DNA of 64,000 nt from Verrucomicrobiota bacterium (GTDB taxonomy: Bacteria > Verrucomicrobiota > Verrucomicrobiia > Verrucomicrobiales > Akkermansiaceae), in contig JAPLUI010000127.1 in the NCBI GenBank assembly GCA_026397725.1, positions 1 through 64,000 on the forward strand. The letters are read 5' to 3'. The notes beneath the pieces were generated by a model. It had not been told where the DNA came from. It did not search any database and worked only from the letters and a program-made list of their open reading frames with translations. Below are positions 118-62,997 of this stretch, in pieces. The position numbers and the translations under genes are program-made. Numbering within the stretch: position 1 is the stretch's first letter; each line of letters begins with the position of its first letter.

Positions 118-3100
118 GTGTATAAAGACCAGGGTCCGGCCCCCGGCTCTTTCAACGGCCTTCACCGGAACAGCAACTTCCTAGCAGTAAGAAAAATACA
201 ACTTGCTGTTATTGTCGGCTTTCTTTCAGTTTTCTCTTTCCTAACTGCTGTAGATGCAGAAACCGGGAATAATGGCCCGAAACTTCCGGTCAAGGATGGG
301 CTTGCCTTGTGGCTGGATACTTCACAGCTTACCGGGTTGACCAACGGCCAGGAGGTGAGCACGTGGACGGATGTGTCCGGCTGTGGAAATAATGCCACCA
401 GGCAGAGTTCTTCAAACGCCGGTTATCCCCAGTACGTTGCCGGCCAGCTCAACGGCTTGCCGGTATTGCGTTTCAACGAGGGCGAACTCTCGGGCGATTC
501 ATTCAAGTTCAACAGGATCTCGAATATCCGGACAGTATTCTGGGTGGTCAAAGAGCGTGCCGTGAAGGATGTCGGATCATTTCTCCTTGGTGACAGCGAT
601 ACCGCCGACTTTCACAGGCAGTTCAACAACGACAGACACGTCTGGGAAGGGGCCAACGAAAAGGTCAGGAATGGAACGACCCGGCTCATGGGTTCCCAAG
701 CCAGGGGCCTGAACCCATCCATTCCGCCAGGGCAGTTCGTGGTGATTTCACTGGTTACTACCGGGGATGTGCAGGCAAATCAGATCACCAATGATAGGGC
801 TTTCAAAGATAGAGGCTGGCGTGGCGATATGGCGGAAATCCTGATCTATACCAAGGCTTTGTCAGATGACGAGGAGGCCAACGTAGGCCGATACCTTGCC
901 CGCAAATACGGGTTGAATACCGAATACCCACCGGAAGGAGAGCATCGTGTCCCTGCCGGCGTTGGGCAGTTGCGTGCAGCCATAAAAGACTTGATGGCGA
1001 CCTTTGGCAGCGAATATCCGGACGGGCCTAAGTTCAGCGCCCGCCTGGATGACCTGGAAAAGACGTTCAAATTTGAGGAGGAATCCAAGTGGGCAATCGC
1101 ACGGCAGGAATTTGAAAAACTTCATCGCGAAGCTCTCGTCGGCAACCCGCTGGTTGCAGGTCAGCCGCTGGCCTATGTGGTTCGTGCCCAGTACGCCGGT
1201 GATCATCATAATTCTGAAACGATGTTCCAGACGGGCGAGTGCAACACAGCATCCTTTCGCGGCCCTGGCGCTTTAGAGACCATAGACTTTAAGACCGGCG
1301 AAACCAAACTGCTCGTGGATGCACCGCAGGGTATGGTGCGGGACCCGGAAGTGAGATGGGACGGGAAGAAGATTGTCTTCTCCATGCGCAGGGATATCGG
1401 GGATGATTATCACCTCTACGAGATCAACCCCGATGGATCGGCGATAAAGCAACTGACATTCGGTGGAGGAATCACCGATATCGATCCGTTCTATCTGGCC
1501 GATGGCCGGATCGCTTTCTCTTCCACACGTGAACCGAAGTACTGCATGTGCAACGTCCACATCATGTGCAACCTCTTCGTTATGGAAGCCGACGGGGCGA
1601 ATATCCACCAGATCAGCAAGAACACGTTGCACGACGCACACGGTTCGCTGCTGGACGATGGCAGAATCCTGTATGATCGCTGGGAGTATGTAGACAGAAA
1701 CTTCGGCGATCCGCAGGGGTTGTGGACAGCCAACCCCGATGGCACCCAGCACCTCGGTTATTATGGGATCAACACACCTTCGCCGGGCGGCATAATCGAT
1801 GCCCGCCAGATTCCAGGAACAAAATCGGTCATGGCCGTGCTCGGCAGTTGTCACGACAGGCCATGGGGCGCTCTTGGAATCATTGATAGAAGCTACGGAG
1901 TGGACGGCAGGGCGCCGGTGGTTCGGACCTGGCCGGCGGCGGCAGTCGACCTGGTGCGCGATCCCGGAACTGCAAACGGGGCGTGGGACCAGTTCATGGG
2001 TGTGAGACCGCGGTATGAAGACCCGTTCCCGCTAAGTGCAAAATACTTTCTCGTGTCGCGTACAACCGGCAATGATGAACAGATGGGGCTCTACCTCCTG
2101 GATATCTTCGGGAACGAGATGCTGCTCCACACGGAAGGCGGAGGTTGTTATGACCCGCAACCGATAGCAAAGAGACCTGTGCCTCCTGTGATTCCTGTAC
2201 GCCGTGATTTCGAGAACAAGGAGGGAACTTTTTATGTGTATAATGTCTATGAAGGGACCCACATGGCCGGCGTGAAACAAGGCGCAGTAAAATCCCTGCG
2301 CGTGGTTGAGTCCCTGGAAAAGCGCAACTGGACCAACCCGGCATGGGGTGGACAGGGTGTTGAACGGCCAGGCATGAACTGGCACGATTTCTCCGCCAAA
2401 CGCATCCTGGGAACTGTTCCGGTGGAGACGGATGGCAGTGCGCACTTCACTTTACCGTCCGAACGGTTCGTCTATTTCCAGCTCCTGGATGAGCGTGGAA
2501 TGATGATTCAATCAATGCGTACAGGCACACTCGTGCAGTCGGGGGAGCGCACTGGATGTATTGGCTGTCACGAGAACCGTATTTCCGGTTCATTGCCTGC
2601 AAACACGAGCACGCCGATTGCGATGCTCAGGCCGCCCAGCAAGCTTACCGGCTGGCATGGGCCGGAACGAGCCTACGGTTATTTGGCGGAGATGCAGCCG
2701 GTCTGGGACCGTAATTGCATAAAGTGTCACGATTTCGGCAAAGAGGGCAGCAAGAAGCTGGTGCTCGCCGGAGACAAAAACAGCGCATTCAACATATCCT
2801 ACACGACGCTCTGGACGAGCGGGCTTCTGCGCGTGGTGGGCGCCGGGCCGGCCGAGATCCAGGCGCCTTACAGTTGGGGGTCCCATGCTTCGCCTCTTAT
2901 TAAGGTAATCCAGGAAAACAGGAAGCAACATACCAACGTCAAACTCAGCACTGAAGATTTTGACCGGCTCGTGACATGGGTGGATCTGAATGCACCTTAC
3001 TACCCGGCCTATGAGAGTAATTTTCCTAACAACAACTACGGCCGTTCGCCTCTAGACGCAGCACAAACCGGACAGTTGCAGGGGATCAGCGACTTGGAAA

Positions 3101-3378
3101 TCTGTTTTGACAGGCCGGAGATGAGTCCCGGGCTGGAGAAGATCAAAAGCGATCCGGCAAAATACAACGCCGCACTTGAGGCGATCAGGGCGGGGAAGGC
3201 AGCGCTGGAAAAATCTCCGCGGCCCGACATGCCTGGCTTCGTGCCATCTCCAAAGGATCAGGAACGGCTAACGAAGTATGACGAGCGCCGGAAGATCGAA
3301 CTGCGCAATCGCGAGGCAATTCGAACGGGAAAGAAACTGTACGATGCAGTGCCTGTCGGTCAACTCCCCCCGCGTTGA
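118..3378 (+). CDS. HzsA-like secreted di-haem protein with N-terminal LamG-like domain
   Basis: 1086 aa. Residues 1-24 are encoded by dispersed repeat R1; a signal peptide follows (about 25-48, hydrophobic core ending near VDAE). A LamG/concanavalin-like domain spans about 55-270 (opens GLALWLDTSQL), then a PD40/TolB-like beta-propeller with the arrangement of the hydrazine synthase alpha-subunit middle region (about 330-750). Two c-type haem sites are visible, CIGCH at 814-818 and CIKCH at 867-871. The propeller also carries a cysteine-rich patch (CMCNVHIMC). Known of the family: such proteins are widespread in Planctomycetes and Verrucomicrobia and lack an assigned reaction; hydrazine synthesis should not be inferred. 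GTG at 118 is the first start after an in-frame TAA, and no later ATG precedes the signal peptide. Sister of the 4876 gene, which lacks the LamG domain but has an FGE domain. Confidence 0.8.
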   Translation: MYKDQGPAPGSFNGLHRNSNFLAVRKIQLAVIVGFLSVFSFLTAVDAETGNNGPKLPVKDGLALWLDTSQLTGLTNGQEVSTWTDVSGCGNNATRQSSSNAGYPQYVAGQLNGLPVLRFNEGELSGDSFKFNRISNIRTVFWVVKERAVKDVGSFLLGDSDTADFHRQFNNDRHVWEGANEKVRNGTTRLMGSQARGLNPSIPPGQFVVISLVTTGDVQANQITNDRAFKDRGWRGDMAEILIYTKALSDDEEANVGRYLARKYGLNTEYPPEGEHRVPAGVGQLRAAIKDLMATFGSEYPDGPKFSARLDDLEKTFKFEEESKWAIARQEFEKLHREALVGNPLVAGQPLAYVVRAQYAGDHHNSETMFQTGECNTASFRGPGALETIDFKTGETKLLVDAPQGMVRDPEVRWDGKKIVFSMRRDIGDDYHLYEINPDGSAIKQLTFGGGITDIDPFYLADGRIAFSSTREPKYCMCNVHIMCNLFVMEADGANIHQISKNTLHDAHGSLLDDGRILYDRWEYVDRNFGDPQGLWTANPDGTQHLGYYGINTPSPGGIIDARQIPGTKSVMAVLGSCHDRPWGALGIIDRSYGVDGRAPVVRTWPAAAVDLVRDPGTANGAWDQFMGVRPRYEDPFPLSAKYFLVSRTTGNDEQMGLYLLDIFGNEMLLHTEGGGCYDPQPIAKRPVPPVIPVRRDFENKEGTFYVYNVYEGTHMAGVKQGAVKSLRVVESLEKRNWTNPAWGGQGVERPGMNWHDFSAKRILGTVPVETDGSAHFTLPSERFVYFQLLDERGMMIQSMRTGTLVQSGERTGCIGCHENRISGSLPANTSTPIAMLRPPSKLTGWHGPERAYGYLAEMQPVWDRNCIKCHDFGKEGSKKLVLAGDKNSAFNISYTTLWTSGLLRVVGAGPAEIQAPYSWGSHASPLIKVIQENRKQHTNVKLSTEDFDRLVTWVDLNAPYYPAYESNFPNNNYGRSPLDAAQTGQLQGISDLEICFDRPEMSPGLEKIKSDPAKYNAALEAIRAGKAALEKSPRPDMPGFVPSPKDQERLTKYDERRKIELRNREAIRTGKKLYDAVPVGQLPPR
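131..188 (+). repeat. R1 dispersed repeat, copy 1
   Basis: Matches the R1 core GGTCCGGCC(A/C)CCGGCTCTT, continues with AACGGCCTTCACC and ends in TTCCTAGCAGT. It lies in frame at the start of the first gene, so the repeat encodes its extreme N-terminus. The left part of R1 (CCCCATGAATC...) is absent here. Confidence 0.75.
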
Positions 3379-3413
3379 AGACTGAATGTAAGCGTCCTAA
3401 ATTCTTAGGTAAT

Positions 3414-3551
3414 CCCCCAGCTTTGCTGGGGGACTCCCAGAGTTTGACAACTGGAGATGTTTGGTGGGGCTTAGCCGCCTTCAGGCGGCTCCCAGCCCAA
3501 TCAGCCGCTTTGAGCGGCTAACATATTTCATGCCCCCGGCTTTGCCGGGGG
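3414..3551. repeat. Cluster of four perfect hairpins (REP-like)
   Basis: Four inverted repeats in 138 bp: CCCCCAGCTTTGCTGGGGG (3414-3432), AGCCGCCTTCAGGCGGCT (3473-3490), AGCCGCTTTGAGCGGCT (3503-3519) and CCCCCGGCTTTGCCGGGGG (3533-3551). They separate two convergent genes and could act as a two-way terminator. The set of short GC stems with tiny loops resembles REP elements mobilised by REP-associated or IS200-like transposases. The last hairpin overlaps the 3' end of the minus-strand hydrolase. Confidence 0.7.
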
Positions 3552-4544
3552 TATCTGAATGGCCCGCAGAATGAATTCCACGACTGGCAAGGGATCCCTC
3601 AGCCCGTGTGGATGATGGCCCACACCACCCTTAAGAATGATCGTCATGTTCCGTCCGCCTGCCTTTTCATAACGCTCCTTGAACAGCCCCGTGTTTTCTT
3701 CATAGCGCACTACTTCGTCGCGATCCCCGCAGACGTGAATGATCGGCACGTTCGCCTGGGCGAAGATGCGGGCTTTATCGACAGGGTTCTGATTGTAGGC
3801 CAGCGCCTCGGCCTCCGACTTGAATCCATAGAGTCGCAGCAATTCCTTCTCCTTGACGCCGGGCCAACTTTGGACATTCATCACAGGTGCGTCCCCGTAA
3901 ATGCACGCGACTTTCTCCGGGTTCTCGGCGGCCCAATTATAGGCTACCAGGCCGCTGCGGCTGTAGCCTTCAAGCACCACTTTCTTTGAAAATCCCCGCT
4001 TCGTCGTGAGTTCGGCATAAAGAGCGCTCCACCGCGCGACGCCCTGCGGACTGCCAAAATCGTCCGCATCCATGCCGACGAAATAGACTCCCTTTTCCAA
4101 CAGTGCCCGAGCAACCTGCAACGGGTCGGCGGCACAGCGCTCGAGCAGCCAAGGTTTGCCCGGCAATGGTTTTGCAGGGGCGACGATCCGCACTCGCACG
4201 CCGTCAAGTTCGAAGTTCTCGATGTGCAAATGACTCCAGTCGGTTTGCGGCTCGTTGTAAAAGGGAGCTGCCCCTCCGCCCGGATCATAATCCTTCAGCA
4301 ACTGCACGTCCACGCCCCGCGCCGGCGGCTGGTCGTCAGTTAGAAAGGCCAGATTCGCCCCGGGCTTGAGCAGGGTCTTGGCGATGGTGATCTGCGTGGG
4401 CCAGGGCACCAGGTGCAGGGGCCGCTCCTCCGCGGGCGCGGCGACCGGCTCCACGGCGGCCACCAAGGCGGCGGCACTGAACAGGGCAACGCCTCCGCTG
4501 ACAATTATCGATTTCGTGATTTGCATGGATTTCGTGGTTTGCAT
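3528..4544 (-). CDS. Secreted alpha/beta hydrolase
   Basis: 338 aa. The N-terminal signal/anchor segment is about 12-35. The alpha/beta-hydrolase core has nucleophile elbow GYSRSG (Ser195), an acid in HVCGDRDE (Asp274/276) and a histidine in GVGHHPHG (His310/311), so a full triad can be assigned. The substrate is unknown; an esterase or deacylase role near glycosidases is plausible. Residues 43-53 (LHLVPWPTQIT) resemble the opening of GH20 N-terminal domains and not a hydrolase, suggesting a chimeric N-terminus. The last seven residues (PPAKPGA) are encoded by a perfect hairpin. The start region contains a near-direct repeat (ATGCAAACCACGAAATCC / ATGCAAATCACGAAATCG), so initiation could be at residue 1 or 7; no clear Shine-Dalgarno is seen. 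Confidence 0.75.
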   Translation of the reverse strand: MQTTKSMQITKSIIVSGGVALFSAAALVAAVEPVAAPAEERPLHLVPWPTQITIAKTLLKPGANLAFLTDDQPPARGVDVQLLKDYDPGGGAAPFYNEPQTDWSHLHIENFELDGVRVRIVAPAKPLPGKPWLLERCAADPLQVARALLEKGVYFVGMDADDFGSPQGVARWSALYAELTTKRGFSKKVVLEGYSRSGLVAYNWAAENPEKVACIYGDAPVMNVQSWPGVKEKELLRLYGFKSEAEALAYNQNPVDKARIFAQANVPIIHVCGDRDEVVRYEENTGLFKERYEKAGGRNMTIILKGGVGHHPHGLRDPLPVVEFILRAIQIPPAKPGA

Positions 4545-4875
4545 GGATTTATACAGGCCGCCTTATCAGGAAATTTCGTTGGATTTCCGGCAGGAATCCG
4601 GGTGTGGAATGTGTTGCTTGAACGACACGATTATTGCCGCCCGCCAAATGCAAGGGCAGCAAGAAGGTGATTCATCCCAACCTCCTCCCATATCGCAGTT
4701 CTTCAGGCCGCAGGATTCTTATGGGACGTTGCCCTGGGCTATGACCGCTCGTGGAGCACAGGAAAATTTCCGCCGGGGGTTTTTTCACTTGCACCTGGCG
4801 GCGGCTGCCAGGAAGCTCTGCCCGCCGGGCCACCCCATGACGGGACGCCTTGCGAAATGAAATGACACCGCCCGT
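4545..4875. other. Intergenic region between divergent genes
   Basis: About 330 bp between the minus-strand hydrolase and the plus-strand HzsA-like gene. Presumably it carries both promoters. I recognise no gene, repeat or clear promoter box; the open frames here have no recognisable content. Confidence 0.4.
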
Positions 4876-13767: not shown

Positions 13768-14020
13768 TCAGCTTTCAAAATACGTGTAGCCGGTCAGGCC
13801 CTCGCGGTAGAAATCGAGGATTTCCCAACGAATTTTCTTGGCAATGCGGACCAGATGCCTGATTATCTCGCTTGAGGAATTCTTCCATGGAAATGGCTTC
13901 AAACCACTGCCGCTTGCCAAAATTCGCGTTTGGAGCCTTGCGGTTTTCGAGGTCCGCCAGATTTTCCGGCTTATTGGTCCCCTTTTCCCCAGCCACCCCT
14001 TTTTCCTCGCCCTCCGGGCC
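13768..14020 (-). pseudogene. Short unrecognised ORF remnant beside R1
   Basis: On the minus strand the frame NLADLENRKAPNANFGKRQW...EEFLKRDN changes near 13860 to IIRHLVRIAKKIRWEILDFY...GYTYFES and stops. The two frames join naturally with one indel, giving about 80 codons. I do not recognise the family. Its 5' side (minus strand) begins directly in repeat R1, the same placement as the small ORF at 34.17 kb, so it may be debris that travelled with R1. Confidence 0.35.
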
Positions 14021-14069
14021 GGCCATCGGCCCATTCAACGGCCTTCACCATAAAGGCAAATTTCTGTAA
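14005..14069 (+). repeat. R1 dispersed repeat, copy 2
   Basis: CGCCCTCCGGGCCGGCCATC followed by GGCCTTCACCATAAAGGCAAATTTCTGTAAT. It lies in the 5' leader of the GH51 gene. The characteristic CTAGCAGT end is degraded. Confidence 0.7.
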
Positions 14070-14145: not shown

Positions 14146-16122
14146 ATGATCATGAAACATAATGGACACATCACGAGGACTTCAATGCTGGTGTTGACGG
14201 GACTTGGTGCCACTCAACTGGCAGTCGCGGCACCCTTGGTATTGGAGGTGCGGGCGAATCAACCGGGGCATCCTATCAATAAAACACAATATGGCGTGTT
14301 CTTTGAGGAAATCTCCCATGCCGGCGAGGGCGGGCTGTATGCGGAGCTGGTCAAGAACCGTTCGTTTGAGGACAGCACCGACTCGATTCCCGATTGGACG
14401 TTCTACAAGACCGGCGTGGCCGATGGGACCATGTCACTCGAAAAGACCGGGCTTCTGAACGCCGCGCAAGCGTGTGCGCTGAAGCTGGATATCAGCGTTC
14501 CCGGGACGGTCGGCGTGGCCAATGCCGGCTACTGGGGGATCCATGTGGTCAAAGGACGAACGTATGATCTCTCGTTTTTCACCAAGGCAAGTCTGCCAGC
14601 AAGCGCGACCATCACTGCCAAGCTCCAGAACCACGACGGCACCAAAACCTACGCCTCATGCATCGTTGGCGGTCTAACGGATGCCTGGCAGAAACACAAG
14701 GGCACCATGACCGCCGACGACACCGAACCCCAGGGCCGCCTGACCCTGGAGGTCACGACCGAAAAACCCGGCACCCTATGGCTCGACGTGGTGTCACTTT
14801 TTCCGCCGACCTGGAAAGGCCGGCCTAACGGGACGCGGCCCGACCTCGCCGAAATGGTGGCGAAAATGAAACCCGGCGTGATCCGCTTTCCGGGCGGCAC
14901 TTATGTGAGCACCAACCCGTCGGATGCCCCGCGACCGCTGAGCGAACTTGGGCCGATTGAGGAGCGTCCCGGTCATCCCGCGCCTGGCAAACAGAACCCA
15001 TGGGGCTACCACAACAACGACGGTTTCGGGCTGCATGAATACCTGCAATTCGCCGAGGACCTGGGTGCCGAACCGATCTATGTGTTCCAAGGCGGGGCGA
15101 ATCCAGGGGCGGAAATGAACAGGCCCGAGACCTATATCAAGGGCGCGGCGCTGGACCAGCTCATTCAGGAGTCCTTGTCAGTCATCGAATATGCGAATGG
15201 CCCGGCCACCACGACCTGGGGCGCCAAACGCGCCGCGAACGGACACCCCGAACCGTTCCACATGAAATACGTCCAGATCGGCAATGAGAACTGGCACAAA
15301 CCATTTCACGACAACTACATCGTCATCTACAACGCCATCAAGGCGAAATATCCCGAGATGCAGGTGATCTGGGGCGGTGACTGGATTGGTAACAACCAGC
15401 ACGGCTATAAGTCCGACGGCATCATGCCTGAAGGCTCCGCGGCGCAGATTGTTGATGAGCATTTCTACAAGGCTGATGACTGGTTCTACAACAATTCCGA
15501 GCGTTACTCTCCGCAGAACTATCCACGCGGCGTGGCGCGTGAAGCCAAGGTGTTTCTGGGCGAGGTCTCGGCGTGGAAGGACACCCTCGATGCCGCTCTC
15601 AAGGAATCCGCCTTTCTGCTCGGGGCTGAGAAGTATTCCGACAAGGTGGTGATGGCAGTCTATGCGCCTCTCTTCGCCAACGTGAATTTCATGAAGTGGT
15701 CGGCCAATGCCATCTACTTCGACAACGCGCGTGTTTACGGTTCTCCATCCTATCACGCACAGGCCATGCTTGGGAACAATGTCGGCGATGTGAACCTGGT
15801 GGTCGGAGGGCTGGAAGGGCTCCTTAACAAAAAACTGTTTGTCAACGCGAACCGGATCACCGCGACCGGTGAGGTCATCATCAAAATCGTCAACTCCGAA
15901 GCGCAAGCGCGCGAAATCCGAATTGAGGTGCGCGGCATGCCCAAACCTCCGCGCTCCGGACGTGAGATTGTTCTGACTGGTCCTGATTTGAACGCGGGCA
16001 ATTCGTTCGACAAGCCGTTGAATGTGGCACCGGTTGAAAGGAAGTTGGAGAAGCCGGGCGATTCGTTCACCTACTTGGTCAAACCCCAATCATTCACGGT
16101 GCTCAGGCTGATGAATCCTTGA
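14146..16122 (+). CDS. Alpha-L-arabinofuranosidase, GH51 family, secreted
   Basis: 658 aa from ATG 14146, chosen because AGGA lies a few bases upstream and a signal peptide follows (TSMLVLTGLGATQLAVAAPL); the longer ORF from 13930 merely reads through R1. Layout: CBM4/galactose-binding-like insert after YGVFFEEISHAGEGGLYAE, then the (beta/alpha)8 barrel and a C-terminal beta domain. The acid/base glutamate is in IGNENW (Glu381) and the likely nucleophile in FLGEVSAW (Glu473), so the enzyme looks intact. Family reaction: release of terminal alpha-L-arabinofuranosyl residues from arabinan and arabinoxylan. It is followed almost without gap by a discoidin-domain gene, probably co-transcribed. 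A second intact GH51 lies at 41.3 kb and a decayed one at 49.7 kb. Confidence 0.9.
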   Translation: MIMKHNGHITRTSMLVLTGLGATQLAVAAPLVLEVRANQPGHPINKTQYGVFFEEISHAGEGGLYAELVKNRSFEDSTDSIPDWTFYKTGVADGTMSLEKTGLLNAAQACALKLDISVPGTVGVANAGYWGIHVVKGRTYDLSFFTKASLPASATITAKLQNHDGTKTYASCIVGGLTDAWQKHKGTMTADDTEPQGRLTLEVTTEKPGTLWLDVVSLFPPTWKGRPNGTRPDLAEMVAKMKPGVIRFPGGTYVSTNPSDAPRPLSELGPIEERPGHPAPGKQNPWGYHNNDGFGLHEYLQFAEDLGAEPIYVFQGGANPGAEMNRPETYIKGAALDQLIQESLSVIEYANGPATTTWGAKRAANGHPEPFHMKYVQIGNENWHKPFHDNYIVIYNAIKAKYPEMQVIWGGDWIGNNQHGYKSDGIMPEGSAAQIVDEHFYKADDWFYNNSERYSPQNYPRGVAREAKVFLGEVSAWKDTLDAALKESAFLLGAEKYSDKVVMAVYAPLFANVNFMKWSANAIYFDNARVYGSPSYHAQAMLGNNVGDVNLVVGGLEGLLNKKLFVNANRITATGEVIIKIVNSEAQAREIRIEVRGMPKPPRSGREIVLTGPDLNAGNSFDKPLNVAPVERKLEKPGDSFTYLVKPQSFTVLRLMNP

Positions 16123-17274: not shown

Positions 17275-17359
17275 ATCTTGCAACCCCCATTTCCCCACCC
17301 TCCGGTCCGGCCACCGGCCCTGGCAACGGCGTTCACCCGAAAAGCAATTTCCTAGCAAT
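17267..17359 (+). repeat. R1 dispersed repeat, copy 3 (full length)
   Basis: Full-length form: CCCCATGAATCTTGCAACC, then CCTCCGGTCCGGCCACCGGC, then GTTCACCCGAAAAGCAATTT and CCTAGCAAT. The mutS fragment begins exactly at its right end. On the minus strand it shows a Shine-Dalgarno-like GGAGGG followed by an ATG opening a short ORF (MGVARFMG). Confidence 0.75.
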
Positions 17360-17548
17360 GACGCCGCACATCGGGACGCCGTTGCGGCGGGTGAGCGCCA
17401 CGTTGAGGATGGGCGAGGCGGTCTTGGCATCCTCGAAGAACATCTCGAAAAAATCCCCGAGCCGGAACATCAGCAGCACATCCGCGGGCAGGGATTTCCG
17501 CATGGCCTGGTATTGGGCCATCATCGGGGTGGGAACGGGCACGGACAT
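17357..17548 (-). pseudogene. mutS N-terminal fragment
   Basis: Minus strand from ATG 17548: [20 protein letters not shown], then [20 protein letters not shown] and GVPMCGV. This is the DNA-mismatch-binding domain I of MutS (compare family motif TPMMQQY...RMGDFYELFYDDA). Only about 60 residues of an 850-residue protein are present. The reading continues straight into R1 (ARKLLFG) and stops. The residues retained include the Phe-x-Glu region (FFEMF), but without the other domains the product cannot work. The start and any promoter to the right seem intact, so this marks a break point and not a gradual decay. Confidence 0.8.
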
Positions 17549-30340: not shown

Positions 30341-30388
30341 GGGCGTTTCCCCGGCCATCCGGACCGACCACCGGTTCTTTCAACGGCC
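30341..30388 (+). repeat. R1 dispersed repeat, copy 4 (partial)
   Basis: CCGGCCATCCGGACCGACCA then CCGGTTCTTTCAACGGCCGTCACC. The right end of R1 is replaced by the last codons of the AAA-ATPase fragment, whose TGA stop lies inside the repeat (minus strand). Confidence 0.6.
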
Positions 30389-30389
30389 G

Positions 30390-30660
30390 TCACCCCATCC
30401 ACATCTCCAAATCCGCCATTGCGGCCCTGACGTTGCCCTTGGCCCCTTCCGCGATCTGGCGGGTGATGGCGATGGGAGCGCCCCAGCGCCGGGCGAGGAA
30501 TGCCGCGAGAACCTCGTTTTCCGGTGGCTGGAGGCGGACCGATTGGAAGCGGGTCTGGAAGCGTCCCGTTAGGCTGGTCACGTCGAGGTTGGTGGTGCCG
30601 AGGAACGCGTGACCCGGTCTCATGCGGTCGATCATCGCAAATCGCTTCAGAAATTCCCCT
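30390..30660 (-). pseudogene. AAA+ ATPase C-terminal fragment
   Basis: Minus-strand frame: RPGHAFLGTTNLDVTSLTGR, FQTRFQSVRLQPP, then LAAFLARRWGAP, IAEGAKGNVRAAMADLEMWM and stop. The pattern (sensor-1 TTNLD, arginine-rich TGRFQTRF, lid domain with GNVRAA) is that of the C-terminal half of an AAA+ ATPase of the clamp-loader/DnaA-like type. The Walker motifs are missing and the sequence to the right is unrelated. A second, shorter copy of the same 3' end is at 33236-33272. Confidence 0.6.
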
Positions 30661-33066: not shown

Positions 33067-33205
33067 ATTGCCTTAGGCGGCATCACCGGCCTCCTTGCTG
33101 CCGCGCATCTGCATCAGCATCTCGGCGATGGCTACCGCGTTCTTCAGAAAGACGATCTCACCAGCAGCTCACCATCGACATACACGGCCAATGGAGGGTG
33201 TGATA
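33067..33205 (-). pseudogene. Frameshifted copy of the VYVDGELL small gene
   Basis: Minus strand: VYVDGELL, a 1-nt shift, then VEIVFLKNAVAIAEMLMQMR and SKEAGDAA with a TAA stop. It is homologous to the ORF at 33880-34030. It starts about 45 bp after the stop of the short AAA-ATPase tail remnant, giving the order AAA tail - small gene. Confidence 0.5.
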
Positions 33206-33640: not shown

Positions 33641-33879
33641 CCCAAATGATTCAGCCATAAACTCCGCATTACCTGATTAGTCTGCCAGAAAACCACAGTT
33701 CCCTATTTCCACTCAGCGTCTATCTCAGCGTCCTCCGCATCTCCGCGTTTCGCTTCTATCAAAATCCGCAGGGCAGGACGGGACGAAGCAGGAAGTCTGC
33801 AACCTAAGCACAGGCCAAGCTCTGGCATCACGCCCACGGGGGAAAAGTGCGACGGTCATAGACGCGCCGCTACAGGCCG

Positions 33880-34030
33880 CGGCATCACCGGCCTCCTTTC
33901 GGCTGTGCATGCTCAGGAGCAGGTCGGCGATTGCCGCCGCGCCCTTGCGATAGACGACCACGGCGAGCAGTTCCCCATCGACATACACGGCCCAGAACCG
34001 GGTGTGGCGGTATTTGCGGATTTCGATCAT
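33880..34030 (-). CDS. Small protein, VYVDGELL family (C-terminus altered)
   Basis: Starts ATG 34030 ([20 protein letters not shown]), overlapping the stop of the preceding small ORF in an ATGA. The recognisable part runs about 50 residues ([29 protein letters not shown]). The stop codon seen in the other copy (GDAA then TAA) is lost here, and the frame runs on to 33725 through unrelated sequence. I do not know the function. The recurring order with an AAA-ATPase and a small HTH-like ORF suggests a phage- or plasmid-type module. Confidence 0.5.
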
Positions 34031-34170
34031 GCCGCCCATCCTTCCCGTTTGGCACGCGCTTTCAGTTCGCGGAGCCCGATGCCGTATTTGTCAGCAATCT
34101 TCTTGCCATGCCCGAACGGTGGGGTATTCTTGCCGGCGATGAACCACCCCATGAATCCCGAATCCGCCAT
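34027..34170 (-). CDS. 47-residue HTH-like small ORF starting inside R1
   Basis: [20 protein letters not shown] then [20 protein letters not shown] and EGWAA. The [20 protein letters not shown] segment resembles the helix-turn-helix of small terminase or DUF1804-like proteins. The ATG (34170) and a Shine-Dalgarno GGAGGG 4 bp in front are both provided by the lower strand of R1 copy 5. Its stop overlaps the next ORF by 4 bp (ATGA), so the two are translationally coupled. Too short for the ORF track's best call. Function unknown. Confidence 0.5.
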
Positions 34171-34240
34171 TGTTCCCTCCGGGCCGGCCACCAGCCCTTG
34201 CAGCGGCCTTCACCCCGCGAGCGAATGCTTCACAGTCGTC
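34147..34240 (+). repeat. R1 dispersed repeat, copy 5 (full length)
   Basis: CCCCATGAATCCCGAATCCG, TCCGGGCCGGCCACCAGCCC, GCGGCCTTCACCCCGCGAGC. The right end (CAGTCGTC) is diverged. Upper strand: in frame with the acetylesterase remnant. Lower strand: Shine-Dalgarno and ATG of the 47-residue ORF. Confidence 0.75.
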
Positions 34241-34751
34241 CGCCGTGTATCCACCGCGGGCAGAACCAGAAGCCTTGCGATGTGTTGCCACAAGTGGTTG
34301 CGAATCGCCGTGTTAGGACTGTTAGCGGGGTGCTGGACGTCGTCCGCACCGGCGGCGGTCAAGTTACCGGCGGTGATCGGCGACAACATGGTTCTGCAAC
34401 AAGGTCGGCCCGTGCCCATCTGGGGTTGGGCCGACATCCGACATCTACAAGTCGATGACCGTTGAGGGAAACAAGATTCGGCTGCAATTCGATCATGTCG
34501 GCGGCGGGCTGGTCGCCTCCGACGGCAAGCCGCTGGTGGAGTTCACCATTGCCGGAGCCGACCAGAAGTTCGTGCCCGCCAAGGCCGAAATCGACGGCGC
34601 CGCGGTCGTCGTCTCCGGCGACGGGGTAACCGCACCGGTCGCTGTGCGCTACGCCTGGCAGGAAACCGCGCAGCCCAATCTGGCTAACAAAGAGAGCCTG
34701 CCTTCCTCGCCGTTCCGCACCGACACCTGGAAATGCGTGACGGAGAAATAG
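34151..34751 (+). pseudogene. Sialate O-acetylesterase gene with central deletion
   Basis: The upper-strand R1 ATG (34151) leads into a signal peptide ([20 protein letters not shown]) and the acetylesterase opening [20 protein letters not shown] then WGWAD. At about 34436 the sequence jumps to the family C-terminus in another frame ([20 protein letters not shown] ... PASPFRT-like ending LPSSPFRTDTW). About 350-400 residues are missing, including the GQSN and QGE catalytic blocks. A short direct repeat (CGACATC CGACATC) sits at the junction, as expected for deletion between micro-homologies. The ORF track lists the two halves separately (ends 34465; 34455-34751). Confidence 0.75.
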
Positions 34752-39817: not shown

Positions 39818-39907
39818 ACCGCTCCTGTGCGCAGGATGATTTCTCTTGCATGCGCGGCGCCAACTTCACAACTCTTGACACACCCCCTATTCTGGAATGC
39901 CAACCCC

Positions 39908-39980
39908 TTAGTCCCCGCCCTCCGGTCCGGCCACCGGCTCTTGCACCGGCCTTCACCATAAATGCAGTTTCCCAGCAGTC
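39908..39980 (+). repeat. R1 dispersed repeat, copy 6
   Basis: CCGCCCTCCGGTCCGGCCAC, GGCTCTTGCACCGGCCTTCA, then AATGCAGTTTCCCAGCAGT. Lies 8-10 bp upstream of the next gene's ATG and is not in frame with it. Confidence 0.75.
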
Positions 39981-39987
39981 CGAAACC

Positions 39988-41241
39988 ATGCAACCTATGA
40001 ACATAAAACAGTTAGCCAGCACCCTCATCCCCGCCCTCGCCGCCACGGCGTATCTATCAGCCAACCCCGCCGCCGGCACCTCGAAGTGGCCGGAGCAGAC
40101 GCCGGCCGGATGCCCGTTCGTCCGCTCGGGCGACCTGCCTGGCATGGAATTCACCGAGCGCCACGCGGAATACACCAATGCCGACACGTGGTATCCGTCG
40201 TGGGCGGCCGATGGCGACTTGTATTCGCCATGGACCGATGGCTCGGTCAATGGGTTGGGCTCCAACTCGGCGGGAAAGGATGCCACCACCGGCTATGCCA
40301 AGATCCTTGGCGATGATCCGCTCAACCTCAAGGTGGTGGACCAGGCGGTTTACAAATCCGATCCGGCACCCTATCAGAGCCGCTATCCATGTGGCAGCCT
40401 GGTTCATGACGGCGTCTGGTATTACGGCACCTATTGCCTCTACGGAGGACAAGTCACGGCAAAGGACGGCGTCACCTACAACTGGCCGTGGTTGGGGCCG
40501 TTTGTCGGGTTCCGCTGGTCCACGGATTTCGGCAAGACCTGGACCCAGACGCCCTGCACGCCGGCCAAGCCGTTGTTCGGCGAGGCATGCCTGAATGGCG
40601 AGCCGGTCAAGATCGGCGCGCCGCATTTCGTTGACTTCGGCAAGAACATGCAACACTCCCCCGACGGCAAGGCATATCTCGTCGCCCACGGCGCGTCCGA
40701 CGGTGTCAAGCGCCGCTTCGGCTATGACAGTTGGATCACCGGCGATGAGATCTATCTGCTGCGCGTCACCCCCACGATCGGGAACATGAACGATGCCTCG
40801 AAATACGAGTTTTTCGACGGCAGCGGCTGGACCAAGGATTTCAGCAAGATCAAGCCCATCGCCGCCTGGCGCGATAACATGGGCTGCGTCACCATGACCT
40901 ATAACGCGCCGTTGAAGAAATTCCTGATGTGCGTTACCGACGGCATGACCACCGGGTGCCGCTTCAACACTTATATCCTCGAGTCGAATCAAATCACCGG
41001 GCCGTTCAAGCTGGTGCAGTATCTGCGGTATTTCGGCGAGCAGGGTTACTTCGTCAATTTCCCGTCGAAGTTCATCAGCGCCGATGGCCGCACCCTCTGG
41101 CTCTCCTATTCCGGCAACTTCGCCACGTCATGGGATGGGCAGCAAATCAAGAAGAACCCGCCCCCCAGCAGCTATGCGTGGTGCCTGCAGGAGGTCAAGC
41201 TGCCAGCACCGGGCAAGACCCCGACAACCACATCCCCATAA
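39988..41241 (+). CDS. Secreted beta-propeller protein, probable glycosidase-like
   Basis: 417 aa from ATG 39988 (alternative ATG 39997); the longer ORF start at 39655 lies inside the previous gene. Signal peptide about 1-30 (LASTLIPALAATAYLSANPA). The rest is rich in propeller-type strands with Asp-box-like turns (GFRWSTDFGKTWTQTP, LWLSYSGNFATSWDG, YWPSWAADGDLYSPW-like opening). It resembles DUF4185/sialidase-like folds more than any single GH family, so no reaction is assigned. It sits 170 bp after the SGNH-propeller gene and directly behind R1, and is followed within 90 bp by GH51; these genes may form one transcription unit for polysaccharide breakdown. Confidence 0.65.
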   Translation: MQPMNIKQLASTLIPALAATAYLSANPAAGTSKWPEQTPAGCPFVRSGDLPGMEFTERHAEYTNADTWYPSWAADGDLYSPWTDGSVNGLGSNSAGKDATTGYAKILGDDPLNLKVVDQAVYKSDPAPYQSRYPCGSLVHDGVWYYGTYCLYGGQVTAKDGVTYNWPWLGPFVGFRWSTDFGKTWTQTPCTPAKPLFGEACLNGEPVKIGAPHFVDFGKNMQHSPDGKAYLVAHGASDGVKRRFGYDSWITGDEIYLLRVTPTIGNMNDASKYEFFDGSGWTKDFSKIKPIAAWRDNMGCVTMTYNAPLKKFLMCVTDGMTTGCRFNTYILESNQITGPFKLVQYLRYFGEQGYFVNFPSKFISADGRTLWLSYSGNFATSWDGQQIKKNPPPSSYAWCLQEVKLPAPGKTPTTTSP

Positions 41242-41327: not shown

Positions 41328-41420
41328 CCCCATGAATCCCGAGGCTTCCATTTCCCCGCCCTCCGGTCCGGCCACCGGCCCTTGCAACGGCTTTCCCCCG
41401 AAAAGCGGTTTGTTAGCAGT
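41328..41420 (+). repeat. R1 dispersed repeat, copy 7 (full length)
   Basis: CCCCATGAATCCCGAGGCTT, CCTCCGGTCCGGCCACCGGC, CCCGAAAAGCGGTTTGTTAG then CAGT. Upper strand gives the start and first 30 residues of the following GH51 gene. Lower strand shows GGAGGG then ATG opening a short frame (MEASGFMGKFF). Confidence 0.8.
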
Positions 41421-43317
41421 CAGGTTGCTGGGGTTTGCGGCAATCATGGCTCTGTTGGGCCCTGTGCCCGCCGTTGCCGCCGAGACGGTCGCGAACGGCG
41501 CGCGGCCGACGACGCTTTCGATTGATCCGACCAAGACTGTCAATCGTATCGACGAGCGGGTCTATGGGCACTTTTTGGAGCACATCTATCATTCCTGCAA
41601 CGGCGGGTTGTGGGGCGATTTGGTCTGGAATCGCAGCTTTGAGTACAATGCCGCCGATGGGTCGGCATCGCATAACTGGACGGCCTATGGGCCGGGCAAA
41701 GCCACCCTTGCCAAGGACCATCCGCTGAACAGCAACTATTGCCAGCAGATCGTCGCTGAATCCGGCGAAACGGGACTCGAACAAACCCCTTTTTGCATCC
41801 GCCAAGGCGAGACCTATCGCGGCTCGCTCTGGGCCCGCGGCGAAGCTGCCGAGGGCCTGGTGGTTCGACTGCTCGACGGCTCGCAAACGCTGGGCGAAGT
41901 GACGCTGCCTCGCCCGACGGCCGAGTGGGGAGAGTATCCGTTTGAATTCAAGTCCACGCGCGGCACCGACAACGCCACGTTGCGGATTGGCGTCCGCGGC
42001 AAGGCCGAGGTCTGGCTGGACCAGGTGTCGATGATGCCCGAGAGTTGGGCCAAGGCGGGCGGGTTTCGCCCGGACTTGCTCAAGGCCGTCGCCGACCTGC
42101 GGCCGCCGGTCATCCGCTGGCCCGGCGGCTGCTACGCCAGTTGGTATCGGTGGAAGGAAGGCATCGGGCCGCAACACAAGCGGCAATCGTTCCCCGTGGA
42201 AGTATGGGAAGACCGGGACGTCAACTCCCTGGGCACTGACGAGTTCATGGCCCTCTGCCGCAAAGTGGGCGCCGAGCCACTGTTCGTGATCACCCTGGGT
42301 TTCGGTGAATTTCCTCGCGCCTATCCGAATGTCACGGCGGACGAACTCCTGCAGGATGCCCTCGATTGGTTAGAATACTGCAACGGCCCGGCTGACTCGA
42401 AGTGGGGCAAGGTTCGCGCGGCCAACGGTCATCCCGAGCCTTACAACGTGAAGTACTGGGAGCTCGACAACGAGGTGTGGGGAATAGGTGCCGAACGCTA
42501 CGCCAACGCAGTCCTCAAGTTCGCCCCTCCGATGAAGAAGGCCTATCCTTCGATCCAAGTGGCCATCTGCGGCAGCGCCGGCTATGATATTGCTTGGAAC
42601 AAGTTCATGATCGACCACTGTGCCGAGGTGATCGACTACCTGAGCCTCCACCATTACGAGAATCCCAGTGGGTATGCCGACGGGCCGCGAAACTATGAAG
42701 ATGCCTTCCAAAAGTCGGGCGAGTTGATCCGGCAGTCGAAGAACCCAAAACTCAAACTCTACATCTCCGAGTGGAACGTCCAAACGACCGACTGGCGCAC
42801 GGGCCTCTATGCGGGCGGGCTATTGAACAGCTTCGAGTGCTGTGGTGATTTCCTGGCGATGGGCTGCCCCGCACTCTTTCTCCGAACCACGGCCTCCAAG
42901 GAGCAAAATTGGAAAGCCCTCATCACCTTCGACCATCGTACTTGGTTCCCGGCACCTAACTATGTCGTGATGAAACTCTGGCGCGACCACTACGCGCCCA
43001 CCCGGGTGAACCTCGACGGAGATTGCCGCGGGTTGAATGCCTTGGCCACGAAGTCGGCCGACGGCCGGGCGATTTATTTCAAGGCCGTCAACCCGACCCC
43101 GGAACCCGTGACGGTCGAACTCAACATCATGCCGGGGTTTGCCGTGGGCAAGGCCGAGTTGGAGCTTGTCGCTCCCGACTCGCTTGACGCCCAGAACACG
43201 CTGGACAAGCCCCATGCGGTGCAACCTGTGGCCGGCGCCGTCGAGCGCAGCGGCTCCACGTTGCGTTTCACGCTTCCCCGCTGGTCGGCAGCCGTGCTAA
43301 GCGTCCACTCCACGTAG
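41332..43317 (+). CDS. Alpha-L-arabinofuranosidase, GH51 family, with R1-encoded N-terminus
   Basis: 661 aa from ATG 41332. Residues 1-30 (MNPEASISPPSGPATGPCNG...) come from R1; the hydrophobic core LLGFAAIMALLGPVPAVAAE follows and should serve as signal peptide, although it now sits 30 residues in. An internal TTG within R1 (LLAVRLLGF) is a possible alternative start. Layout: N-terminal strands (VNRIDERVYGHFLEHIYHSC), CBM4-like insert, barrel with acid/base Glu381 (ELDNEVWG) and nucleophile Glu480 (YISEWNVQ), then a C-terminal beta domain. All catalytic residues are intact. Same reaction as the 14.1 kb enzyme but only moderately similar. The 49.7 kb pseudogene is closer to this one. Confidence 0.87.
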   Translation: MNPEASISPPSGPATGPCNGFPPKSGLLAVRLLGFAAIMALLGPVPAVAAETVANGARPTTLSIDPTKTVNRIDERVYGHFLEHIYHSCNGGLWGDLVWNRSFEYNAADGSASHNWTAYGPGKATLAKDHPLNSNYCQQIVAESGETGLEQTPFCIRQGETYRGSLWARGEAAEGLVVRLLDGSQTLGEVTLPRPTAEWGEYPFEFKSTRGTDNATLRIGVRGKAEVWLDQVSMMPESWAKAGGFRPDLLKAVADLRPPVIRWPGGCYASWYRWKEGIGPQHKRQSFPVEVWEDRDVNSLGTDEFMALCRKVGAEPLFVITLGFGEFPRAYPNVTADELLQDALDWLEYCNGPADSKWGKVRAANGHPEPYNVKYWELDNEVWGIGAERYANAVLKFAPPMKKAYPSIQVAICGSAGYDIAWNKFMIDHCAEVIDYLSLHHYENPSGYADGPRNYEDAFQKSGELIRQSKNPKLKLYISEWNVQTTDWRTGLYAGGLLNSFECCGDFLAMGCPALFLRTTASKEQNWKALITFDHRTWFPAPNYVVMKLWRDHYAPTRVNLDGDCRGLNALATKSADGRAIYFKAVNPTPEPVTVELNIMPGFAVGKAELELVAPDSLDAQNTLDKPHAVQPVAGAVERSGSTLRFTLPRWSAAVLSVHST

Positions 43318-45529: not shown

Positions 45530-45588
45530 ATGAAAAAAACAACCCCTTTTTCACCGCCCTCCAGTCCGGCCACCGGCTCTTTCACCTG
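45530..45588 (+). repeat. R1 dispersed repeat, copy 8
   Basis: ATG 45530 with AGGAG upstream opens MKKTTPFSPPSSPATGSF, the same peptide pattern as other R1 copies. Core CCTCCAGTCCGGCCACCGGC then TCTTTCACC. The TGA of the minus-strand DUF1254 gene lies inside the right part (minus GGTGAAAGAGCC). Confidence 0.7.
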
Positions 45589-47054
45589 CGAATCTGGAGT
45601 TCGACGTTGGGCGGCAACCAGGTTCCGTCGAGGATCGCTTGCTCGGCCCAGTAGCAGCGCATATACAGCGAGAACGTTCCTTCCGGTGCCGGCACCCAGT
45701 TGGGTTCCTTGTCTTTGCCCGGCGACTTCGCGCCGAAATACAGCGTGAGCGACCCGTCCGGGTTGGTTTGCATGCCTTTGTTCTTGGTGCCGAGCGAGTA
45801 GCGGTTCAGCGGGTTGGGGTGGAAAAGGTGTTGTTCGTTGTAGAGCGTGATCGACCAGAAGCCTTTCACCGGCGGGAGCTGGCCCTTCGGGAAAGTGATC
45901 GAGTAGAGACTACTGCCAACCAGCGGCTGGCCCTGGCTGTCGAAATCGCGGTAGAGGTATTTTGTTTCCGTGGGCTTGTTTTCAAGGATGTTGGACTTGG
46001 CGGTTGCGGTGCGGTTGAGGTAGTCGGTGCCCCACTGGGCGTTGTTCACCGGCGAGTTCCAGCCGTTGCCTGCGGGCCGGCCGTTGTAGCGCCACTGGAA
46101 AAGCGGGGCGATGATTTCCTTGTCGGTGGTGATGAAAGATTCAACCAGTGCCTTCTTGATCTCCGGATCTTTCGCCGCGGCCTCGAATACGGAGCGAATC
46201 CAGCCGTAGAGGGCCTCCTCGCCCGGCAGCGGCGGCACGAGTTTCATCACCATCGGGAGTTCGTCACAATAGGCTTCCGGCACCACCCACTTGACCTCGC
46301 CTACAACGCCCGCCGGCACCGGGAAATGGGGCAGCTTGCTCCAATCCGTGGTTTTCATTTTCCCATCGAACCGGCTTAGCGGATAGAACATGATCTGATG
46401 CAGCAATGGCTGGACGGCCGCAGTGTCCTCCGCGGTGTCGTCTTTGAAAATTCGCGGGGCAATGGCTGCCATTTCCGTCGGACAGCGCACCACTGCCGTG
46501 ATGCCCGCGGGAACCTCACCCTTCCAGTTAGGTCCCACCATCAGATAGAAACCGGGCTTCGTGCCATAAGGCTTGCCGATGTCGCCGAACTCGTCGGTCC
46601 GGGCGTCATACATCGCATAGACCCAGAAGCGGTCGCCGAAATCCGGCACCTGAAAGACGGCCGGCTCCTTGTCCAGCGCAAAAGTTCCCCCGCCATAGAC
46701 CACGTCCTGGTTGGGGCACGCGATGAAGTTTTGGTCCGGTCTCATGTAATCGGTCAGCATCGCGTTCTGCCCAACCGGGGCAACCGGGATCACGCCGCCA
46801 TTGAGGCCGGGGCCGGGCAGCTTGGCCAGGCTGGCACGACGATTGTAGGTGTTGACCATCGGCCAGCCCCAAAGATATGCCATGCGGCCGATCATCTGAA
46901 CGTACTCTTTCGTCATGGCGGTGCCGGCCGCCGGACCGGGCACATCGCGGGCGGTCTTTGGTATCGCCACCGATTGGGCCAGCAGGCTCAGCGGCGCGAT
47001 CAGGGTTGCGGCCAATATGGCGGACAATAGGCGTTGTTTACCGGTGTTCTGCAT
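45582..47054 (-). CDS. DUF1254/DUF1214 protein, secreted
   Basis: 490 aa with signal peptide (LLSAILAATLIAPLSLLAQS). The DUF1254 domain (about 60-180: YLWGWPMVNTYNRRASLAKL, VVYGGGTFALDKEPAVFQVP, DRFWVYAMYD) is followed by a linker and DUF1214 (about 370-480: GFWSITLYNEQHLFHPNPLN, SLTLYFGAKSPGKDKEPNWV). Length and order are standard for this family, whose reaction is not established. It is adjacent to a paralogue (47118) with a similar signal peptide, so the pair arose by duplication. Its stop codon falls within R1 copy 8. No link with polysaccharide use can be shown. Confidence 0.82.
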   Translation of the reverse strand: MQNTGKQRLLSAILAATLIAPLSLLAQSVAIPKTARDVPGPAAGTAMTKEYVQMIGRMAYLWGWPMVNTYNRRASLAKLPGPGLNGGVIPVAPVGQNAMLTDYMRPDQNFIACPNQDVVYGGGTFALDKEPAVFQVPDFGDRFWVYAMYDARTDEFGDIGKPYGTKPGFYLMVGPNWKGEVPAGITAVVRCPTEMAAIAPRIFKDDTAEDTAAVQPLLHQIMFYPLSRFDGKMKTTDWSKLPHFPVPAGVVGEVKWVVPEAYCDELPMVMKLVPPLPGEEALYGWIRSVFEAAAKDPEIKKALVESFITTDKEIIAPLFQWRYNGRPAGNGWNSPVNNAQWGTDYLNRTATAKSNILENKPTETKYLYRDFDSQGQPLVGSSLYSITFPKGQLPPVKGFWSITLYNEQHLFHPNPLNRYSLGTKNKGMQTNPDGSLTLYFGAKSPGKDKEPNWVPAPEGTFSLYMRCYWAEQAILDGTWLPPNVELQIRR

Positions 47055-57895: not shown

Positions 57896-57980
57896 GTGCG
57901 CCTCCCGGGCGAAACCAGCGAGACCATCCCGGTCACGATCATTGGCGATGAAACCGCTGACGTCGGCAACAACCGCATGC

Positions 57981-58101
57981 CATTCTGCCAAAAAACCGAT
58001 GATTTTCTGCCAAAAAACCCATAGACGGCCGGGAAAATTCGTGCTTGTCTGAACGCCACCGCAAGCAATGCCTTCCCCGGTTCGCGTCCAGCGCGCGCCG
58101 C
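57981..58101 (+). promoter_or_regulatory. R2 upstream region, copy 1, with two TTCTGCCAAAAAACC sites
   Basis: TTCTGCCAAAAAACC at 57983 and 58005 (22 bp apart), then CATAGACGGCCGGGAAAATT and GCAAGCAATGCCTTCCCCGG. About 120 bp are shared with 62875-62997, which also precedes a secreted-protein gene. The paired direct repeats two helical turns apart look like an activator or repressor site within a conserved promoter region. Confidence 0.6.
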
Positions 58102-58151
58102 CCACCGGTCCGGCCACCGGCTCTTTCAACCATCTTCACCCCAAGAGCAAA
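58091..58151 (+). repeat. R1 dispersed repeat, copy 9
   Basis: CGCCCACCGGTCCGGCCACC then GGCTCTTTCAACCATCTTCA, CCCCAAGAGCAAATTCCAACC. Sits between R2 and the start of the next gene. The upper-strand R1 frame ends in a TGA that overlaps the gene's ATG (CCATGA). Confidence 0.7.
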
Positions 58152-58174
58152 TTCCAACCAACAAAAACAACACC

Positions 58175-62688: not shown

Positions 62689-62874
62689 GGATTGCTTTCC
62701 CTCAATTGGTTCCGTTGATAGCGCAACGCTCCGTCCACCCAGCGCCTGGCACTTGCCTGCCACGCCGCCGCGCAGAATCCCACCGTCCGTTTGAGTGCTT
62801 GCTTCGTCATCCTTTCTCACGCGCCGCCCCGGCGCGATCCGATGATCCATCCACCGGCATCGCTTGTCGAGTGC

Positions 62875-62997
62875 CATTCTGCCAAGAAACCGAGCTTTTT
62901 CTGCCAAAAACCCCATAGACAGACGGGAAAATCTTTGCTCGTATGAACGCCAGCGCAAGCAATGCCTTGCCCGGTTCGCGTCCATCCCGCGCCGCCG
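62875..62997 (+). promoter_or_regulatory. R2 upstream region, copy 2
   Basis: TTCTGCCAAGAAACC (62878) and TTCTGCCAAAAACCC (62899), 21 bp apart, then CATAGACAGACGGGAAAATC and GCAAGCAATGCCTTGCCCGG. Same layout as 57981-58101. Located in the divergent interval before the 63119 gene. Confidence 0.6.

Follow-up and report, generated by a model that had tools for sequence, protein, structure and literature searches.

Mobile promoters in prokaryotes are similar short sequences found upstream of unrelated genes. Among transposons, IS801 of Pseudomonas syringae, a member of the IS91 family, has left one-ended right-end fragments of 229, 360, and 679 nt (PMC3189936). ISCR1 carries outward-directed POUT promoters on its oriIS side (PMC6218425). 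The locus described here, R1, is very probably the 5'-truncated, decayed right (ori-side) end of an IS91-family rolling-circle transposon. The kind of element is thus a known one; what is new is this member of the family, with its unusual number of solo ends.

The window, i.e., the whole stretch of 64,000 nucleotides that was analysed, contains nine copies of a dispersed repeat, R1 among them, all in the plus orientation. Copies of the terminal module lie at 133-190 (with a TAGCA end at about 186) and 17278-17362. One copy (13974-14066) stands upstream of an arabinofuranosidase gene (14185-16122), one (39900-39986) upstream of a gene for a DUF4185-like secreted protein, and one (41345-41428) is in frame with the signal peptide that an arabinofuranosidase gene encodes. 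A truncated minus-strand open reading frame (ORF) terminates in the antisense of the decayed copy at 30345-30420, and a DUF1254/DUF1214 gene (45582-47054, minus strand) ends inside the right-truncated copy at 45537-45589. The last copy (58098-58166) is situated in a promoter region, the paralogue of which (62872-62996) lacks the module. This promoter-like region (CAAGCAATGCCTT..CCCGGTTCGCGTCC) is itself repeated, at 57978-58102 and 62872-62996 in the window and also in loci L095 and L138; it precedes differing secreted-protein genes and is followed by either the R1 module or a different insert.

The genome from which the window was taken (12.56 Mb in 584 contigs) belongs with freshwater Akkermansiaceae/Verrucomicrobia. 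It holds at least 118 matches to the repeat at up to three mismatches, while a reversed-pattern control gave none, an abundance far beyond chance. The repeat is common within the same genus, where roughly half of the species sampled bear it, and nearly absent in other families, and the named relatives bearing it are lake MAGs. In the aligned copies, a module of about 80 nt stands out sharply: AACCCCCTTTTCCCCGCCCTCCGGTCCGGCCACCGGCTCTTTCAACGGCCTTCACCCCAAAAGCAATTTCCTAGCA. Around a quarter of the sampled copies from the same genome continue leftwards into a promoter segment, which in long copies comprises a TTGRCA-like-N16-TATTNT site, GAGGAG, and ATG, reading rightwards on the upper strand. The left end of the element was located roughly, and deletion derivatives (L093, L097, L133) keep both the module and a motif of that end. 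A second terminal type (GCTCTGCGAGCCCCGCTTTCGCTCTC), present in L079, L110, and L119, is a sister subfamily, and the tail GGAAAGCAATTTCTTAGC is common to both types. Copies are strongly co-oriented within contigs (G000): two more in L138 share the plus orientation of the nine in the window, and 29 of 32 neighbouring pairs, counted by hand, agree in orientation. Single-strand transposition with a bias for one replication strand could be one cause.

The assignment to IS91 relies on the intact element L359, in which a transposase gene is followed by the promoter segment and then by the module. Its 508-aa transposase (ORF 2879-4402) scores 178 bits against NF033538 (IS91), for which the cut-off is 125, matches Y2_Tnp (4.7e-23) and Zn_Tnp_IS91 (1.2e-18), exceeds the cut-offs of PF04986 and PF14319, and displays the HPHLH and YYGVY motifs. 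Several copies of the repeat retain, further to the left, protein pieces of the IS91-family transposase found in L158 and L359. The transposase is followed, some 300 nt further on, by the constant right end, ...AATTTCCTAGCA: in loci keeping the transposase C-terminus, the distance from there to the module end is mostly 287-323 nt, including loci found via the transposase rather than via the repeat. BLAST depth along L359 is approximately 8-27 over most of the transposase, rises to 85 at 4400-4500 and 325 at 4600-4690, and falls sharply to zero at about 4700, where the repeat ends. Around 260 matches end at 4690-4699, with scattered starts; the left ends of family copies vary widely, and truncated right-end copies are abundant. 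The right flanks of 213 copies reveal a four-base target preference, RTMR, of the kind known from IS91 elements, immediately beyond the terminus (181 have R at the first position and 173 have T at the second), and are flat from position 5 onwards. In three loci (L374, L372, and L180), a common captured sequence stands on the left, and the similarity ceases precisely at the right end. In L359, an NAD-epimerase gene (1372-2322) neighbours the transposase and is perhaps captured cargo; fragments of it recur next to modules.

The family resembles IS801 (PMC3189936) in its Y2 transposase, constant right end, 5'-truncated right-end miniatures, left-side DNA capture, and tetranucleotide at the end, but its copy number is far higher and many of its solo ends are only about 80 nt long. 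Several points nevertheless weigh against the IS91 assignment. The RTMR target differs from the GAAC, GGAC, CAAG, and CGAC targets of IS801, and the left edges of the 80-nt copies gather at a fuzzy [C/G]AAC that precedes a pyrimidine tract, with no clear target tetranucleotide. There is no transposase remnant within the window itself, and a joined-flank search between sister genomes, in which the flanks were mostly absent, found no clean empty site. The literature collection searched for IS91 in Verrucomicrobia contained nothing relevant.

R1 occupies 34091-34238 on the plus strand and is composed of a promoter segment, the 80-nt terminal module, and target bases; it carries no transposase. 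Positions 34091-34160 align to the promoter segments of the full-length L093, L097, and L073 with scores of 72, 64, and 45, against shuffle maxima of 25, 23, and 28, respectively. The diverged module (34169-34234) is matched at 34175-34241 with an E-value of 8e-14. The right terminus, the exact position of which was placed by eye, lies near 34234 and is followed by a target-like GTCG (34235-34238). The promoter segment includes an outward-facing promoter-like site, TTGCCA-N16-TATTCT (34103-34130), found once where 0.2 would be expected, and full-length copies conserve a site of this type; judging from its sequence, it would act as a promoter. Beyond it, an upper-strand leader ORF of 104 aa begins at the ATG at 34151 and extends to 34465, as read from the translation. 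It crosses the module without a change of frame, continues into an N-terminus resembling a signal peptide, and is then broken. A Pfam search of this broken gene gave no match; it may be sialate O-acetylesterase-like. On the other side, the left edge of R1 coincides with the end of homology to neighbouring repeated small genes (33725-34090, minus strand), the first part of which R1 has replaced. A small repeated gene, also on the minus strand, is found at 33077-33189 and 33879-33992; it has no Pfam match and is widespread in the genus.

Such a structure could have arisen as follows. A Y2/HUH transposase would nick at the right end, and rolling-circle copying would often stop early (one-ended transposition), or copies would decay, either of which would leave right ends standing alone, approximately 80 to 300 nt long. 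As the long form appears to bear an outward sigma-70-type promoter, a Shine-Dalgarno (SD) sequence, and an ATG on the upper strand, its insertion could donate a promoter and a start codon to whatever lies downstream, often, it seems, a gene for a secreted protein. In R1, the left edge would have cut into the small minus-strand gene, and the resulting fusion would have produced the lower-strand ORF.

This ORF was noticed in the original prediction, which read the lower strand of R1 as a ready-made gene junction, made of a stop, a hairpin, an SD sequence, and an ATG. The motifs are indeed present on the minus strand, where GGTGA occupies 34214-34210, next comes a stem rich in G+C, then GGAGGG (34180-34175), and the ATG stands at 34170; likewise, the three FMG-containing peptides, at 34170, at 41.35 kb (MEASGFMGKFF), and at 17.3 kb (MGVARFMG), are real. 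Of 102 copies, 79 retain GGAGG and 61 GGTGA, but an ATG follows GGAGG at 4-14 nt in only 24, the ORFs opened by such ATGs are mostly shorter than 60 aa, and none of the 102 copies has a called minus-strand gene starting there. For the lower strand, this is the very outcome that the original prediction had named as its refutation, namely copies losing the SD sequence and ATG or the stop. The supposedly shared GGTGA stop falls apart on alignment into two separate features: one, at 30.39 kb, comes from the TTCACC column of the repeat, and the other, at 45.58 kb, from the TTTCAAC column, which reads TTTCACC in that copy. The small gene's homologues share its C-terminal end and differ in their first parts, and the homology stops at 34090; the ORF at 34170 is therefore chimeric, with antisense R1 running into the end of a small gene unrelated to it. 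A lower-strand initiation region is accordingly highly improbable, and the apparent gene start is an accident. What survives of the proposed mobile initiation region is that the repeat is mobile and that its long copies bear initiation signals, but on the upper strand; the alternative, the scar of a former operon spacer, is superseded by an IS91-family right end. If the repeat were an integron-type recombination site within cassette arrays, this would account for the co-orientation of modules in contigs and for the turnover of neighbouring genes between sister genomes, and integron integrases above the curated cut-off occur in all six genomes concerned (G000, G006, G036, G057, G111, and G112), G000 also holding many integrase fragments. 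Nevertheless, seven integrase loci together hold a single module, far from an attC array next to intI/attI, and no R' or R'' core sites were seen by eye at the module ends, which leaves this identity about as improbable as a lower-strand initiation region. Even less probable is a REP/RAYT-type palindromic repeat or terminator. The short G+C stem and intergenic location would suit it, but the sense fold is weaker than that of shuffles (z +1.5), the copies exhibit neither a consensus fold nor compensatory pairs, and the repeat is tied to an IS91 transposase. A structured RNA was likewise rejected, with no conserved or covarying fold and no Rfam match.

In a rival reading, selection keeps the repeat as a portable promoter/leader module: the family would owe its spread to the promoter and start codon with which it provides secreted-enzyme genes, and many solo copies would be functional 5' leaders. 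Of the 97 copies with a called gene downstream, 77 have that gene on their own strand, often with a signal peptide within about 130 nt; the reading frames of 24 of 44 nearby genes continue without a stop through the module; and long copies keep the promoter, SD sequence, and ATG. ISCR1 offers a parallel, with an outward promoter near the constant end able to drive an adjacent gene, to which the present unit adds an SD sequence and an ATG, with leader fusions as the predicted outcome (PMC6218425). On the other hand, the module lacks a conserved fold and is read in all three frames, for which reason a conserved leader peptide was rejected. Given its composition, a stop count of zero or one is nothing unusual (58% of shuffles), and selection for a stop-free linker was thus discarded. 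Seven homologues, in other species, of the gene at 39997, which follows the 39.9-kb copy, have no upstream module. Between two sister genomes, L153 and L188 are identical from the left edge of the module onwards and unrelated before it, the pairs L162/L212 and L174/L194 show insertions at that edge, and in L174/L194 the module diverges far more than its flanks, which also speaks against a selected leader. An L117 paralogue without the module was considered as an empty site, but remnants of the module's left edge make a deletion likelier. Maintenance by selection is, on balance, doubtful, although host genes plausibly use the promoter and start signals of the repeat.

The puzzling 'junction' at R1 is now replaced by a known class of mobile element. 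ORFs antisense to such repeats are annotation traps. With the parent transposon identified, unlike in the case of mobile promoters in prokaryotes, the repeat illustrates how a single IS91 family can populate a genome with its solo right ends, and these may give their neighbours promoters and start codons. Somewhat more speculatively still, and rather unlikely at present, the right ends of the lake clade could constitute standing portable promoter-plus-start-codon leaders, repeatedly co-opted for newly arrived secreted glycan-degrading enzymes.
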